This document shows, piece after piece, positions 31,801 to 34,657 of a stretch of 64,000 nucleotides of DNA. The stretch is from Sipunculus nudus (taxonomy: Eukaryota > Annelida > Sipuncula > Golfingiida > Sipunculidae), in NCBI GenBank assembly GCA_026874595.1, contig CM049309.1:68368926-68432925 (forward strand), given 5' to 3'. The notes under the pieces are model-generated. The model ran no database searches and was not told where the DNA came from. It saw only the letters and a program-made list of their open reading frames with translations. The position numbers were made by a program, and so were the translations under genes. Numbering within the stretch: position 1 is the stretch's first letter; every line of letters starts with the position of its first letter.

Positions 31801-34657
31801 TACTTTTAGTCTGAGCGGGCTGCAGACATGGACATCATTCGCCGTAGAGCTTCGGCCTCTTCCTCCAAAATACCAAAATAAGAATGACTATAATAAAATA
31901 ATTTAATTTTTTTTTTACGATAAAATCACGGGCGTACCTGTGTAAGCACAAAAATTAAAACTAGGAAATAAGTTATTAACTTTTAAAAAAAACATTCAAT
32001 GTTAGAAATGTATAAACATTTATATTCGTCGATGCTAAAATGTCAGTAATGTTCTATCTGCAATGAGTAGATAAAGAAGATAACGAAATTTTGTTTCTCT
32101 AAGCAGACGTTATTTATTTTTGCCCCCTGAGGTCTCCTAGAAAGACGTTTTATTGTGAAACTGTTTGAAAATCACGTATAATAATGTGTTGAACTAGGTA
32201 TTTTAGTTTTATGTCGAATTAACATGTTGCACAATAAAAACTGCCCTAATTATCTGTGTAACACATTAGTTCAATATTTCAGTTTGTAAAACAAACATTG
32301 TTTAAATGAAAGTGTCACTCTATTTTCGTACATCAACCTTTGGAAATGCAGATTTTCATAATCATTATTAAAATTACTTTTGAGACGCAAATTAAATAAA
32401 TGAAGCAAGTGCAATGGGGTTAATTGAAGGAATATGTAACCACAACTTCCCATGCCCTTATCCATTACGCATCAAATCATACAGCAATAGTACGTGATAA
32501 GAAAACCTTTCAACACTGAAAACTTACTGGATCTGCATAGTTGACAGCAGGTCCGCCTTTGGCGACATTCTTCAAAGCGTGCTCTGTAGCTATCCATTCC
32601 CCTCTGTGGGTTAGCTGGTATAGCCGACTTGGATCTGTTGGATTTATCTTCGGAGTTTCCTTGGTTTCAGACGTAGAATCCGTAGATCTGTCTGTACTGC
32701 CGCCGTTAGATTTCTCCGTCCTTTGACTGCTAGTGTCTGGCTTTTTCTGTCTGTTTGCTGGTTTTCTGTCTCCTGCATCTCTTGAGCTTGCGTTGCTGGC
32801 CAAATCTCTCTGAGTCTTCCCACTCACCGAGGAATTGTCTTTACCATCCTTGCCACCGACACTGCCACTATCATTCTTCCCAGCATGTTGTTTATTATTC
32901 CACTGTTTGCTCACAGGTCCTCCCTTAAGTCCAGTTTGATTACTTTTAGAGCTTTCTTGGGATTTCTGGCTGGAGGCTTGAGACTTATTTTCAGAACTAA
33001 CACTGCTTTTATCAGACCCACCATCTTTATTGTTATTGCTTGTTTTGGTTTCCTTTTGTGACAGTGCACCTCCCTTTAATCCACCTGGAACACTTTTAAA
33101 CCTCTCCTCAGATTTGTGACTGCCGGTAGATGATTTGCTATCAGAAATATCTTGATCGGAATTACTCTTATATGAGGTACTCCTATCAGAATTACTCTTG
33201 TCTGAGGTACTCCTATCAGAACTGCTCTCAGAGTCACTCTTTTGAGAACTACTCTTATCAGAGGTAGCCTTATCAGCATCACTCTTCTGGGAACTACTCT
33301 TATCAGAGGTAGCCTTATCAGTGTCACTCATATCAGCATCACTCTTCTGGGAACTACTCTTATCAGAGGTGGTCTTATCAGAATCACTCTTATCAGCATC
33401 ACTCTTATGAGAACTACTCTTATCAGAGGTAGTCTTATCAGAATCACTCTTATCAGCATCACTCTTATGAGAACTACTCTTATCAGAGGTAGTCTTATCA
33501 GAATCACTCTGATCAGAGGGTCGCTTATCAAAGCTGTTATTATCAGAGATATCTCTATCAGAATCCCTATGTTTTTCATCTGAAACGTTTTCCGTTGGTA
33601 ACACATTTTTCTCACTTTGTCGTACATCATCAGTTGGTTCAGCTTTTCTTGAGACTTCTTCGGGTTTCGAACTTAATTCATTCGTAACCTGATCTTTACC
33701 TTTCATCTCCTGTTCCTTCAGCCCTTGTGCGTTTTTTTCTAATCTCGAATTACTCTTTAGTGAGTTATCGGAAGTACCAGCAATTGGAGGAAAGGTACTT
33801 CCATTCTTACTTTTAGTGCTTTGTGACTTTTCTTGTCTTCTTGCTTGGTTATTGCTTTCAGAATTTTTATTCTTTCCATTTGTTTTTTTATTAGAGCCCG
33901 AACTGGCATGATTTCTCGGTTTGATTTCATAACTTCCACCACTATCAGACTTGTTTTTGTCTTCTCTTGATTTTTGCGCTTTGTATATTTTTGAGTACTG
34001 CGCAAGGTCTGGTTTTCCATTGTGTAAGTGAGAATCTTTCCCTTTAATAGGTAAAACTCCATTATTTGCGGGTATCTTCCCACTTTGTTCTTGTTTAGAA
34101 TGTGTCATTTTAAAGTCCGGAGCAGGTTTTGTATACGTTGGCCTTCCCACATTTGCGCCGTTTTCCTGTCCATTCGACTGGCGTACAACATGGCCGGGTA
34201 CCCGTTTTGGTTCGTTACGCGGCATTGAGTTCTGATTAGAATGTATAGGTGGCAGTTTTTCCACACTTCCTTTGTTCTCTTGACTTTTTGTCTGGGATCC
34301 ATTGATTCCGGGGCCCCTCTTTAACTCTCTGTCAGGCATTGGTTCTTTTGAAACACCCTGCCCTTCAAACTGCTTTTTCGGAGGGCTACCTTGTGAAGAA
34401 AGTTTTGCTTCCTGGTTCAAAGGCACATTGTCATCTTTTACTACATTTGGATTATGCAGAGAAGTTTCCTGCGTGCTGGAGGTCACAACTTTATCAGGAG
34501 TTAGACTCGTGTGAGCTCTGGCGAGCGCTGAATTACCTGTGTGCGGTTGTCCCGACAATACTGGCAGCGTAATAGCCTCCGGGTTTCGAGTGGTCCCTGG
34601 AGCAGGCCCGATCAGCCCGGAACCCGATACGTCACGCGGAGTCTCGGACTCTGACAT
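220..34657 (-). CDS. TRPN1: TRPN / NompC-like mechanosensory ion channel, 5' part (18 exons; 3' part beyond the window)
   Basis: This spliced gene encodes the N-terminal half of a TRPN channel, a plasma-membrane cation channel gated by force through its long ankyrin spring, which couples to microtubules in Drosophila. Eighteen exons with AG acceptors and GT donors, all in phase 0, join into 1,376 uninterrupted residues: 1-710 non-ankyrin, 711-1376 nineteen ankyrin repeats. Repeat order and irregularities (a 38-residue repeat 3, ten-residue insertions in repeats 13 and 14, a 39-residue repeat 15, two-repeat exons for 7+8 and 17+18) follow Drosophila NompC as I know it, which separates it from ordinary ankyrin proteins and from TRPA1. 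Repeats 20-29, linker, six membrane helices and TRP domain are not in the window. The start is the first ATG after an in-frame stop at 34709-34711. Upstream untranslated exons cannot be excluded. Introns range from about 0.4 to 8.1 kb. Identity is very likely; the lineage-specific N-terminus is unusual. Confidence 0.95.
319..1027 (-). other. Intron 17
   Basis: AT-rich; apart from the truncated exon copy at 391-421, I see no recognisable element. Confidence 0.85.
391..421 (-). pseudogene. Truncated duplicate of the start of TRPN exon 18
   Basis: About 31 bp in intron 17 read [11 protein letters not shown] on the minus strand, nearly the same as the [11 protein letters not shown] start of exon 18, and are preceded by an AG acceptor (TTTTAAG). 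About 26 of the first 30 bases agree with exon 18. Similarity stops after about ten codons, and the frame reaches TAA soon after. It begins 103 bp upstream of the exon 18 start. It cannot encode a full repeat. Confidence 0.7.
1028..1228 (-). CDS. TRPN1: TRPN exon 17: ankyrin repeats 17 and 18
   Basis: Residues 1277-1343 (67 codons). Acceptor TTTCAG, donor GTAAGA. Second two-repeat exon: [20 protein letters not shown], then [17 protein letters not shown] and a [10 protein letters not shown] end. The loops [12 protein letters not shown] and ASIDALTL match NompC closely. Confidence 0.96.
1229..2393 (-). other. Intron 16
   Basis: Contains a dispersed repeat segment around 1257-1345 that shares a 17-base string (1326-1342) with 31431-31447 in intron 2. 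Otherwise nothing recognised. Confidence 0.8.
2394..2492 (-). CDS. TRPN1: TRPN exon 16: ankyrin repeat 16
   Basis: Residues 1244-1276 (33 codons). Acceptor TTCTAG, donor GTAAGT. Contains [18 protein letters not shown] and ends [10 protein letters not shown]; the HARVDVFD loop is identical to NompC as I know it. Confidence 0.95.
2906..3022 (-). CDS. TRPN1: TRPN exon 15: ankyrin repeat 15
   Basis: Residues 1205-1243 (39 codons). Acceptor TGGCAG, donor GTAGGA. Contains [19 protein letters not shown]; the MHY/FHY box in place of TPLH and the AGNxDxLxEM helix are shared with NompC repeat 15. Confidence 0.94.
3713..3841 (-). CDS. TRPN1: TRPN exon 14: ankyrin repeat 14 with insertion
   Basis: Residues 1162-1204 (43 codons). 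Acceptor TTTCAG, donor GTAGGT. Contains [15 protein letters not shown], an acidic FEDTD insertion and NIQTKL at the end; NompC repeat 14 has a similar polar insertion between its helices and a LQTK end. Confidence 0.93.
3888..4432. mobile_element. 545-bp foldback / MITE-like element with long inverted repeats
   Basis: The left end (3888 to about 3970) and the reverse complement of the right end (about 4350-4432) match over roughly 85 bp, with small differences. Both begin GCCCGATTTAATCGGACT and both contain AGTCCGATAGCCAT and GAGTTTCTACA. A TA dinucleotide flanks each side (3886-3887 and 4433-4434), the target duplication expected of Tc1/mariner-type non-autonomous elements. No transposase is encoded. 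It lies in intron 13 of TRPN. Confidence 0.85.
4905..5300. repeat. Degenerate AT-rich minisatellite
   Basis: A phrase of the type TATGGACAAAATATATAAG followed by a GTCACA or GTGCGAT segment recurs about every 35-60 bases (for example near 5090, 5145, 5190, 5228 and 5265). The open frame on the minus strand through it is low complexity. Confidence 0.75.
5411..5539 (-). CDS. TRPN1: TRPN exon 13: ankyrin repeat 13 with 10-residue insertion
   Basis: Residues 1119-1161 (43 codons). Acceptor TTTTAG, donor GTGAGT. Contains [17 protein letters not shown], then an extended [15 protein letters not shown] segment. The corresponding NompC repeat is also about ten residues longer than canonical, so the length is a family feature. 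Confidence 0.93.
6010..6108 (-). CDS. TRPN1: TRPN exon 12: ankyrin repeat 12
   Basis: Residues 1086-1118 (33 codons). Acceptor ATTCAG, donor GTATTC. Contains [17 protein letters not shown] and ends ATWQSK. The preceding 2.5-kb intron contains the Penelope-like fragment. Confidence 0.93.
6552..6605. repeat. (TA)n microsatellite
   Basis: About 27 uninterrupted TA units immediately before the Penelope-like fragment. Confidence 0.97.
6606..7290 (+). pseudogene. Penelope-like retroelement fragment (C-terminal GIY-YIG endonuclease), broken
   Basis: The first frame reads [14 protein letters not shown], then [11 protein letters not shown], a Cys cluster [25 protein letters not shown], a TAA at 6944-6946, and [17 protein letters not shown]. 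This is the Cys-rich linker and GIY-YIG core of Penelope-like elements. A shift in the A-run near 7019-7027 moves the frame to [24 protein letters not shown] and, after another break, [19 protein letters not shown], ending at a TAG at 7286-7288. The endonuclease nicks DNA for insertion in intact members. The reverse transcriptase part is missing, so the copy is 5'-truncated and dead. It is opposite in orientation to TRPN, in intron 11. Confidence 0.85.
7523..7587. repeat. (TA)n microsatellite, interrupted
   Basis: Two TA runs (7523-7563 and 7571-7587) separated by TGTCCG, downstream of the Penelope-like fragment. Confidence 0.95.
7588..8633 (-). other. Remainder of intron 11
   Basis: No gene, tRNA or clear repeat recognised. 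Confidence 0.7.
8634..8735 (-). CDS. TRPN1: TRPN exon 11: ankyrin repeat 11
   Basis: Residues 1052-1085 (34 codons). Acceptor CTGCAG, donor GTGCAG (a weak donor). Contains [16 protein letters not shown] and KSGANINAV; the [13 protein letters not shown] string is identical to the Drosophila repeat as I know it. Confidence 0.95.
9160..9261 (-). CDS. TRPN1: TRPN exon 10: ankyrin repeat 10
   Basis: Residues 1018-1051 (34 codons). Acceptor TTTTAG, donor GTACGT. Contains [20 protein letters not shown] and ends FKGGK; NompC has [20 protein letters not shown] and a GGK end at this place. Confidence 0.95.
9696..9794 (-). CDS. TRPN1: TRPN exon 9: ankyrin repeat 9
   Basis: Residues 985-1017 (33 codons). 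Acceptor TTGTAG, donor GTATGG. Contains [15 protein letters not shown] and ends GATVDAKTK; the LHSAA box aligns with the IHTAA box of the corresponding NompC repeat. Confidence 0.94.
10260..10460 (-). CDS. TRPN1: TRPN exon 8: ankyrin repeats 7 and 8
   Basis: Residues 918-984 (67 codons). Acceptor ATTCAG, donor GTAAAC. This is one of two exons with two repeats: [19 protein letters not shown], then [19 protein letters not shown] and a [11 protein letters not shown] ending. The RTKDGSTL linker and MPNK end are almost unchanged from NompC repeats 7-8, which makes this the strongest single family match in the gene. Confidence 0.97.
10601..10702. mobile_element. Tiny inverted-repeat element in intron 7
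   Basis: AAGTGGGTCTATAGG at 10601-10615 is inverted at 10688-10702 with one mismatch. The 102-bp interval has no coding content. It could be a very small MITE; target duplications are not clear. Confidence 0.5.
11368..11469 (-). CDS. TRPN1: TRPN exon 7: ankyrin repeat 6
   Basis: Residues 884-917 (34 codons). Acceptor TTACAG, donor GTAAGT. Contains [18 protein letters not shown] and ends with a VYDN turn, closely matching the GQTPLHIAAAEGDE repeat of NompC. Confidence 0.95.
11983..12081 (-). CDS. TRPN1: TRPN exon 6: ankyrin repeat 5
   Basis: Residues 851-883 (33 codons). Acceptor TTTCAG after a T-rich tract, donor GTATGT. Contains [17 protein letters not shown] and ends DVDAQN; the RRKD/RRRD element is shared with NompC repeat 5. 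Confidence 0.94.
12717..12821 (-). CDS. TRPN1: TRPN exon 5: ankyrin repeat 4
   Basis: Residues 816-850 (35 codons). Acceptor TTTCAG, donor GTAAGT. Contains [19 protein letters not shown], a repeat that lacks the usual TPLH box. NompC repeat 4 has the same IPxxLAxExGN pattern and the CRELL helix, so the departure from consensus is conserved rather than decay. Confidence 0.94.
13914..14351. repeat. 216-bp tandem duplication
   Basis: Two head-to-tail copies, starting at about 13914 and 14130, share TTGGATTCATATTAGCAAAC and the following sequence up to a TCATATTTATT end, with a small insertion (TAAA) and few substitutions. It lies in intron 4, outside any coding sequence. Confidence 0.9.
17206..17217 (+). 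other. Reverse transcriptase YADD catalytic motif of the intronic LINE
   Basis: TATGCTGATGAC encodes YADD, the metal-binding catalytic motif of reverse transcriptases, inside the longest intact piece of the LINE (about 16972-17373). Confidence 0.92.
17573..18422. mobile_element. Hairpin-ended non-autonomous insertion inside the LINE
   Basis: LINE coding similarity stops near 17570 and resumes near 18435. The inserted segment begins with a 7-bp-stem hairpin (GTAGTCG/CGACTAC, 17573-17591) and a GTATCCGCC at 17594. It ends with a 13-bp-stem hairpin (18393-18422) whose outer arm GGCGGATAC is the reverse complement of that GTATCCGCC. The interior has two about 270-bp direct repeats, each with CAGACAAACAGACGGACGC (about 17810 and 18087) and CGGTCAAACGGTTCCCGAGA (about 17918 and 18186). 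No protein is encoded. The exact ends and target duplication are uncertain. Confidence 0.7.
19914..19962. repeat. (TA)n at the LINE 3' end
   Basis: A run of about 24 TA units directly after the LINE's GTGAATAAAA; may be the retroelement's own simple-repeat tail. Confidence 0.9.
20093..20206 (-). CDS. TRPN1: TRPN exon 4: ankyrin repeat 3 (38 residues)
   Basis: Residues 778-815. Acceptor TTCCAG, donor GTAAGG. The repeat is five residues longer than canonical and contains [14 protein letters not shown] and KAAGKDLRL; the second string is the diagnostic part, since NompC repeat 3 has a closely similar AAGKD segment and is similarly long. Confidence 0.93.
20207..23402 (-). other. Intron 3
   Basis: 3.2 kb. 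Apart from a possible tRNA-derived fragment at 21205-21262, no gene or clear element was recognised. GC-richer patches near 22860-23000 look like dispersed repeat but could not be classified. Confidence 0.7.
21205..21262 (-). mobile_element. Possible tRNA-derived SINE fragment
   Basis: On the minus strand, CCGGTTCGAGTGCC resembles the Pol III B box (one mismatch to GGTTCRANNCC) with tRNA-like sequence 5' of it, but a good A box and a cloverleaf are not seen. Probably the relic of a SINE head or tRNA pseudogene. Confidence 0.35.
23403..23501 (-). CDS. TRPN1: TRPN exon 3: ankyrin repeat 2
   Basis: Residues 745-777 (33 codons). Acceptor TTTCAG, donor GTGAGT. Contains [16 protein letters not shown] and ends DASIRGG, matching the Gly-Gly end of NompC repeat 2. 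The preceding 8.1-kb intron is the longest in the resolved part of the gene. Confidence 0.94.
26744..26830. repeat. (TA)n microsatellite
   Basis: About 87 bp of TA units with one AAA interruption near 26768; the longest such array within the gene. Confidence 0.97.
28796..28825. repeat. (TA)n microsatellite
   Basis: About 15 TA units; accounts for the IYIYIY run in an overlapping plus-strand reading frame. Confidence 0.95.
31592..31693 (-). CDS. TRPN1: TRPN exon 2: ankyrin repeat 1
   Basis: Residues 711-744 (34 codons). Acceptor TTGCAG, donor GTAGGA, both phase 0. The repeat begins ETGVTPLML and ends [10 protein letters not shown], corresponding to NompC repeat 1, which also has a TPLM rather than TPLH motif. 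It follows the pre-ankyrin helix across an 834-bp intron. Confidence 0.93.
32528..34657 (-). CDS. TRPN1: TRPN exon 1: long disordered N-terminal region plus pre-ankyrin segment
   Basis: This single exon encodes residues 1-710 (2,130 bp, phase 0 end, donor GTAAGT). The open frame extends eight codons further upstream only through a TTG, and no ATG lies between it and the in-frame stop at 34709-34711, so the protein most likely begins [10 protein letters not shown] at 34657. Residues 1 to about 675 are rich in Ser, Asp, Lys, Asn, Gln and Gly, with no domain, signal peptide or membrane segment visible. Residues about 380-497 form an SDK-type tandem repeat. The last 32 residues ([17 protein letters not shown] lies within them) resemble the short helix that precedes ankyrin repeat 1 in NompC. 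Many Ser-Asp pairs suggest casein-kinase-type phosphorylation (inference). Drosophila NompC has only about 125 residues before its repeats, so this end is greatly extended. Confidence 0.9.
33175..33510 (-). repeat. 60-bp coding minisatellite in TRPN exon 1
   Basis: A 60-bp unit repeats in frame and encodes a 20-residue motif built from SDK triplets (for example [20 protein letters not shown]). Three consecutive 60-bp blocks (33361-33420, 33421-33480 and the start of 33481-33540) are nearly identical; blocks at 33241-33360 are more diverged, and toward the lower coordinates the pattern degrades into [13 protein letters not shown] remnants. Because 60 is divisible by three, copy-number change keeps the reading frame. 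Other reading frames through the array are also open, which explains overlapping spurious ORFs on both strands. Confidence 0.92.

Follow-up and report, generated by a model that had tools for sequence, protein, structure and literature searches.

The locus considered here raises the question of how long the N-terminal end of a TRPN (NompC-type) channel can be, and of what a very long one would do. It lies in a stretch of 64,000 nucleotides from the sipunculan Sipunculus nudus (assembly GCA_026874595.1, contig CM049309.1, positions 68,368,926 to 68,432,925), referred to below as the window and numbered from its first letter. A preliminary description of this DNA had proposed a TRPN gene whose first exon encodes a disordered extension of roughly 680 residues ahead of the ankyrin repeats. 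The exon does encode a low-complexity tail of great length at the N-terminus, with no intron before the pre-ankyrin helix and with a phase-0 donor leading into ankyrin repeat 1.

The first exon and the gene that it opens

The gene is read from the minus strand, where a stop-to-stop open reading frame (ORF) of 732 codons holds exon 1. From the first in-frame ATG, at 34657, to the donor, the exon covers 32528..34657, that is, 710 codons without interruption, ending in phase 0. The ATG stands in the context TTCAGCATC/ATGT, with a purine at -3; the donor, CCA/GTAAGT, has the full intronic consensus GTAAGT, with A and not G as the last exon base. Both the uninterrupted frame and the GTAAGT donor had been described, and the span originally given for the exon (32600..34657) is right at its start but misses the last 70 bp or so before the actual end at 32528. 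Exon 2 (31592..31693, minus strand; CAG/GAGACAGGT...AAG/GTAGGA) encodes ankyrin repeat 1, again as anticipated. Directly before the start codon there is a short upstream frame (MVFRRNY and a stop, 34678–34701, minus strand), a possible regulatory upstream ORF if it is transcribed.

The repeat exons were located with a small ankyrin profile and by tblastn with pieces of NompC, after which splice sites were placed. The spliced model has 18 exons, is stop-free and comes to 4128 nt or 1376 amino acids; all 18 exon lengths are divisible by 3 and all exons are symmetric, in phase 0. Fifteen of the 17 repeat exons code for one ankyrin repeat each (99–129 bp) and the other two for two repeats (201 bp); the longest introns reach about 8 kb. 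When the joined repeats were compared with the PDB, the top match was Drosophila NompC (5VKQ, E=1.4e-209), with ankyrin-1 (2.8e-124) and TRPA1 (1.6e-40) far behind; the gene is therefore called a TRPN, from an ankyrin array that is colinear with that of NompC, and the identity originally proposed is upheld. The alignment to NompC, from the end of the tail through repeat 19, is near-gapless over the repeats, with 340 identical residues among 770 aligned, a count that includes about 100 columns of tail and helix. About 19 repeats in NompC register, of the 28–29 or so that a TRPN would have in total, are present in the window and the array continues to window position 1, so the remaining repeats, the linker helices, the pore and the TRP domain would lie beyond that position.

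There are 710 residues ahead of repeat 1 and about 674 ahead of the capping helix. NompC is described as having 123 residues ahead of its repeats, a segment regarded as probably disordered and assumed to be what binds microtubules (PMC13041742), and the NompC sequence of 5VKQ likewise gives 123; the tail thus far exceeds the N-terminus of NompC, as had been claimed. The segment of residues 675–710 (32528..32635, minus strand), made up of the pre-ankyrin helix and a linker, is colinear with NompC 80–122. The helix has the pattern L....GEW...E..LK, in the residues after 674, and is placed as NompC 80–104 (LGLAMKSEWTPIEAELKKLEK). The preliminary description had called this helix conserved, which fits its position and pattern; the sequence match by itself is weak, its score being reached by 49 of 1000 shuffles, so that the identity of the helix rests mostly on position. 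A homology of the tail to NompC 1–76 was considered and dropped, since 17 of 200 shuffles aligned as well.

Chance was rejected as the origin of the frame. Markov sequences of 64 kb, generated 60 times for each of three orders, had longest ORFs of 183, 253 and 240 amino acids, and none of 500 simulations trained on exon 1 itself reached 709 amino acids, the maximum being 262 against the 710 codons present. A frame that is open but has no coding meaning was rejected by the distribution of T. Avoidance of stop codons leaves T at codon position 2 undepleted; coding for a protein poor in hydrophobic residues depletes T there. Outside the repeat array (560 codons), T occurs 71 times at position 2 and 163 times at position 3, a difference of 92, whereas the largest such difference in 500 stop-free random sequences was 41; the frame has therefore been shaped as that of a hydrophobic-poor protein. 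Searched against Pfam, exon 1 matched no gene family above cut-off, its two matches both being below the curated cut-offs, and a PDB search with the exon returned one chance-level, low-complexity match only (E=0.82). The same Pfam search of nine other ORFs found none above cut-off in eight, and the ninth is the TRPN gene's own repeat exon.

Composition and growth of the tail

The product of exon 1 is rich in serine (18.6%), lysine (12.1%) and aspartate (8.7%; 709 residues counted), and residues 1–671 contain 1.6% aromatic residues, 9.5% ILVM and no cysteine. The Uversky H of this segment is 0.328, below the boundary of 0.422, and all four segments of the tail fall on the disordered side. Residues 1–674 (32636..34657, minus strand) are accordingly predicted to be disordered, as judged by composition only. 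The tail had been described as disordered and charged: composition supports the disorder, while the charge is near neutral overall and not strong, with 31% of the 671 residues charged and a net charge of +16 (+0.024 per residue), as in a near-neutral polyampholyte.

Tandem arrays of 15-bp and 60-bp units, coding for SDKxx and for a 20-residue unit respectively, run in frame through residues of about 366–515 (33139..33565, minus strand; the 60-bp array at about 33269–33516). Residues 384–403 and 404–423 are two perfect 60-bp copies, identical at the DNA level; growth by repeat expansion has therefore been partly recent. The sequence entropy of the repeat segment is 2.8 bits. A comparison of synonymous and non-synonymous changes between the repeat copies found too few differences to be informative. 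Because the coding minisatellite has a 20-residue unit with identical neighbours, the length of the tail may vary between individuals, each copy adding about 7.6 nm of contour if a residue is taken as 0.38 nm. An insertion into the middle of an ancestral tail, suggested by breaks at codons 63 and 592 in the G+C content of third codon positions (GC3), was not significant, as 12 of 100 permutations were as good.

Among phosphorylation-type motifs in the tail, [ST]x[RK] occurs 40 times, above the shuffle mean of 29.0 (standard deviation 4.1), and an acidic residue precedes Ser/Thr 32 times (shuffle mean 25.1). CK2-type sites number 29, about one standard deviation above the shuffle mean of 24.9.

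Possible mechanical role and competing explanations

In a published model NompC consists of elastic ankyrin rods to which worm-like chains are joined in series, and it has been argued there that more disordered residues, 442 in a partly unfolded state, lower the stiffness and widen the dynamic range; in vivo extensions of 20–80 nm are given for the fly haltere (PMC13041742). For the present tail a tether was calculated with the values of that study (1.4 pN/nm, a 4.6-nm swing and 8 kBT) and with our own persistence length of 0.5–0.8 nm and 0.38 nm per residue. With four tails in series, half-opening is calculated at 44–62 nm for 710 residues against 14–17 nm for 123, and the 10–90% range at 21–29 nm against 6–7 nm, about 4-fold wider. 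The corresponding stiffness is 0.14–0.19 pN/nm against 0.56–0.67 pN/nm, about 4-fold lower. This softening holds only if the microtubule contact is at the far end of the tail, and a tether would be quantitatively plausible only with a contact far from repeat 1.

The arrangement that we consider is as follows. The tail, probably grown in part by tandem expansion of a Ser/Asp/Lys unit, would be located on all four ankyrin springs at their cytoplasmic end, which faces the microtubules. There it would most likely work as an extended, fuzzy anchor that holds on to microtubules or to the ciliary matrix at many points. The free length from the contact point to repeat 1 would then set the slack and the compliance that the tail adds in series to the ankyrin spring, and the contact point could shift if the many Ser/Thr residues were phosphorylated. 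A contact far from repeat 1 would give a softer channel responding to larger displacements; a contact near repeat 1 would leave the tail mostly as a side-hanging brush with little mechanical effect. The earlier suggestion of an 'entropic tether or phospho-regulated anchor' is likewise conjectural. To a TRPN with a long tail acting as a many-point tunable anchor, the structural part included, we would give an even chance. It is doubtful that the channel gain and working range of this lineage are set by entropic tail length and phosphorylation, with the spring as in other TRPNs.

A number of observations weigh against the anchor. The synonymous codon use of exon 1 is unlike that of the repeat exons, with a log-likelihood of -80 in the true frame against -22 and +8 in the others (-77 against -19 and -6 when the repeat segment is left out), and GC3 is 0.35 against 0.53 in the repeat exons, one of the 17 being equally low (0.34); the codon use and low GC3 may fit a young stretch or one that is weakly or recently selected. 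A caveat on exon 1 itself is that its donor ranks low within the gene: judged by the other introns it scores 2.7 (leave-one-out, second lowest of 18), and 6.7 in a second scoring (third lowest of 17). In the tail, PKA-type basic sites (1, shuffle mean 5.0) and proline-directed sites (4, shuffle mean 9.8) are below expectation. SxIP and the tau-like KIGS/KCGS are motifs of microtubule-binding proteins; a motif scan of the tail found none of either, and one PGG. A known motif or a strongly basic tail would mark a protein resembling microtubule-associated proteins, and the tail has neither. If only one subunit were tethered (0.7 pN/nm), half-opening is calculated at 122–155 nm against 32–37 nm, beyond the 20–80 nm of the fly. 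Other work on NompC locates the contact with microtubules within the repeats (PMC8186909), in which case the tail would be mechanically idle, and we would not expect push-type gating as considered there to pass through a slack tail. For NompC the N-terminal contact with microtubules is itself described as presumed, and whether the channel is opened by pushing or pulling as debated (PMC13041742).

The competing explanations differ in whether they question the gene model or the function of the tail. The gene model would be changed most if the main transcript skipped the tail, through an in-frame intron inside exon 1 (an exitron) or an alternative first exon, so as to give an N-terminus of NompC length. 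An intron from donor 34537 to acceptor 32772 is the most serious rival to the model: the two sites agree in phase, 32772 is the top-scoring acceptor in exon 1 and 34537 is among the top three donors, and by arithmetic the joined product leaves 122 residues before repeat 1, close to the 123 of NompC. The acceptor, on the other side, has a purine-rich tract, the best in-frame pair by score is a different one (33700 with 32772), and even this pair is no better than in codon shuffles, of which 206 of 300 were as good by summed score (211 of 300 when the test was scored by the weaker site), so the scores do not favour an exitron; nor would one expect 588 codons to have stayed open in a region that is always spliced out. 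A start of translation near residue 670, which would have overturned the proposal of a long tail, would depend on a different first exon or on initiation at a non-AUG codon, since the stretch between residues 443 and 718 has no in-frame ATG. Among coding first exons in intron 1, none of 16 ATGs leads to a phase-0 exon of at least 6 codons with a donor of at least 5.5, and the 121 ATGs in the 10 kb upstream give two weak first-exon candidates at a donor score of 5.5 and none at 7; applied as a control to exon 1, this test did not place the real exon (donor 6.7) among the best 6 of 14 at 5.5. Skipping of the tail is on this evidence unlikely. An outright error in the structure, with the long ORF belonging to another gene or arising by chance and TRPN starting elsewhere, seems to us very improbable: the deviant codon use and the rather weak donor of exon 1 would agree with it, and the exon model is one read from DNA, but one unbroken exon holds both a helix placed as in NompC and the phase-0 donor that leads on to repeat 1, and the missing internal ATGs, the limit of 262 amino acids on chance ORFs and the Pfam results, which name no other family in exon 1 or in eight of the nine other ORFs, all stand in its way.

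The function is questioned by a different account, in which the tail is real and translated but was enlarged by replication slippage, unopposed at a free N-terminus, and has no mechanical role, being neutral or nearly so. The perfect and near-perfect tandem copies would be its direct product, and the background-like GC3 and synonymous codon use, the entropy of 2.8 bits in the repeat segment and motif counts that, [ST]x[RK] excepted, are mostly near or below those of shuffles are what it would lead one to expect. Against it, the frame is open and hydrophobic-poor across the 560 codons outside the repeat segment, and the TRPN family is described as otherwise very uniform in domain arrangement (PMC4494053). 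Neutral growth is a serious but less favoured possibility.

A natural channel with a tail 5–6 times that of the fly beside an ankyrin spring in the usual register provides a ready-made test of push against pull and of the site of contact. A tail that is a tether should shift the displacement sensitivity several-fold, while contact through the repeats should change it little. Such a channel would also show that the family, having kept its spring almost unchanged for about 715 million years (PMC4494053), can vary the tether instead.

Repeat exons, neighbouring sequence and known channels

The remaining exons of the gene, all on the minus strand and placed as described above, follow exon 2 in the order of the NompC repeats. 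Exons 3 to 7 encode repeats 2 to 6 (23403..23501, 20093..20206, 12717..12821, 11983..12081 and 11368..11469), and exon 8 encodes repeats 7–8 (10260..10460). Exons 9 to 16 encode the repeats of the same numbers (9696..9794, 9160..9261, 8634..8735, 6010..6108, 5411..5539, 3713..3841, 2906..3022 and 2394..2492). Exon 17 encodes repeats 17–18 (1028..1228) and exon 18 repeat 19 (220..318, the 3' boundary being uncertain between 220 and 223).

Near the start codon (34600–36700) no RFX X-box, a sign of ciliary promoters, was found by a strict or a one-mismatch pattern; a loose pattern gave two matches there, of 100 in the whole window. Farther upstream, some 4.6 kb from the TRPN start codon, there is a 4-kb minisatellite (39256–43260) with a 16-bp unit, CAGGGGTAACCTGAAA, in about 251 copies with 82% matches. 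Further tandem arrays lie at 44766–44974 (40-bp unit, 5.2 copies) and 61840–61971 (67-bp unit, 2.0 copies). An element that looks tRNA-derived, at about 38460–38650 on the minus strand, has a B-box-like sequence, GGTTCGATTCCC, is flanked by long AT dinucleotide runs and is a possible short interspersed element; tRNA and Rfam scans of the window gave no match.

Drosophila NompC (TRPN1; isoform L, 5VKQ) shares with this gene the order and spacing of repeats 1–19, the helix before repeat 1 and a low-complexity, disordered N-terminus that starts MS- and is similar in composition. It differs in having 123 and not 710 residues before repeat 1, and it lacks the tandem Ser/Asp/Lys array. The TRP-4 of C. 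elegans is longer than NompC, and TRPV4, of another TRP subfamily, has six ankyrin repeats. Members of the TRPN family such as scallop CfTRPN and Hydra TRP-N are likewise ankyrin-spring TRP channels, and the family is described as having about 28 repeats, invariant across Metazoa and kept for about 715 million years, in a very uniform domain arrangement (PMC4494053). The scallop model, as reported, is different: at 1571 amino acids in all it could not hold a tail of 700 residues. The cDNA and the ORF of that model are listed with the same length (4716), so it may lack 5' sequence (PMC8539334). Among the papers listed in literature searches on TRPN, no title or abstract opening describes so long a tail; orthologues of related species lay outside the comparison. 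TRPV4 has, like the present channel, a disordered tail before its ankyrin domain, one reported to regulate the channel and able to exert force on it, but that tail is about 150 residues long and binds lipids (PMC10344929). Set beside these channels, the Sipunculus tail is probably an enlarged version of the disordered N-terminus that NompC also has.

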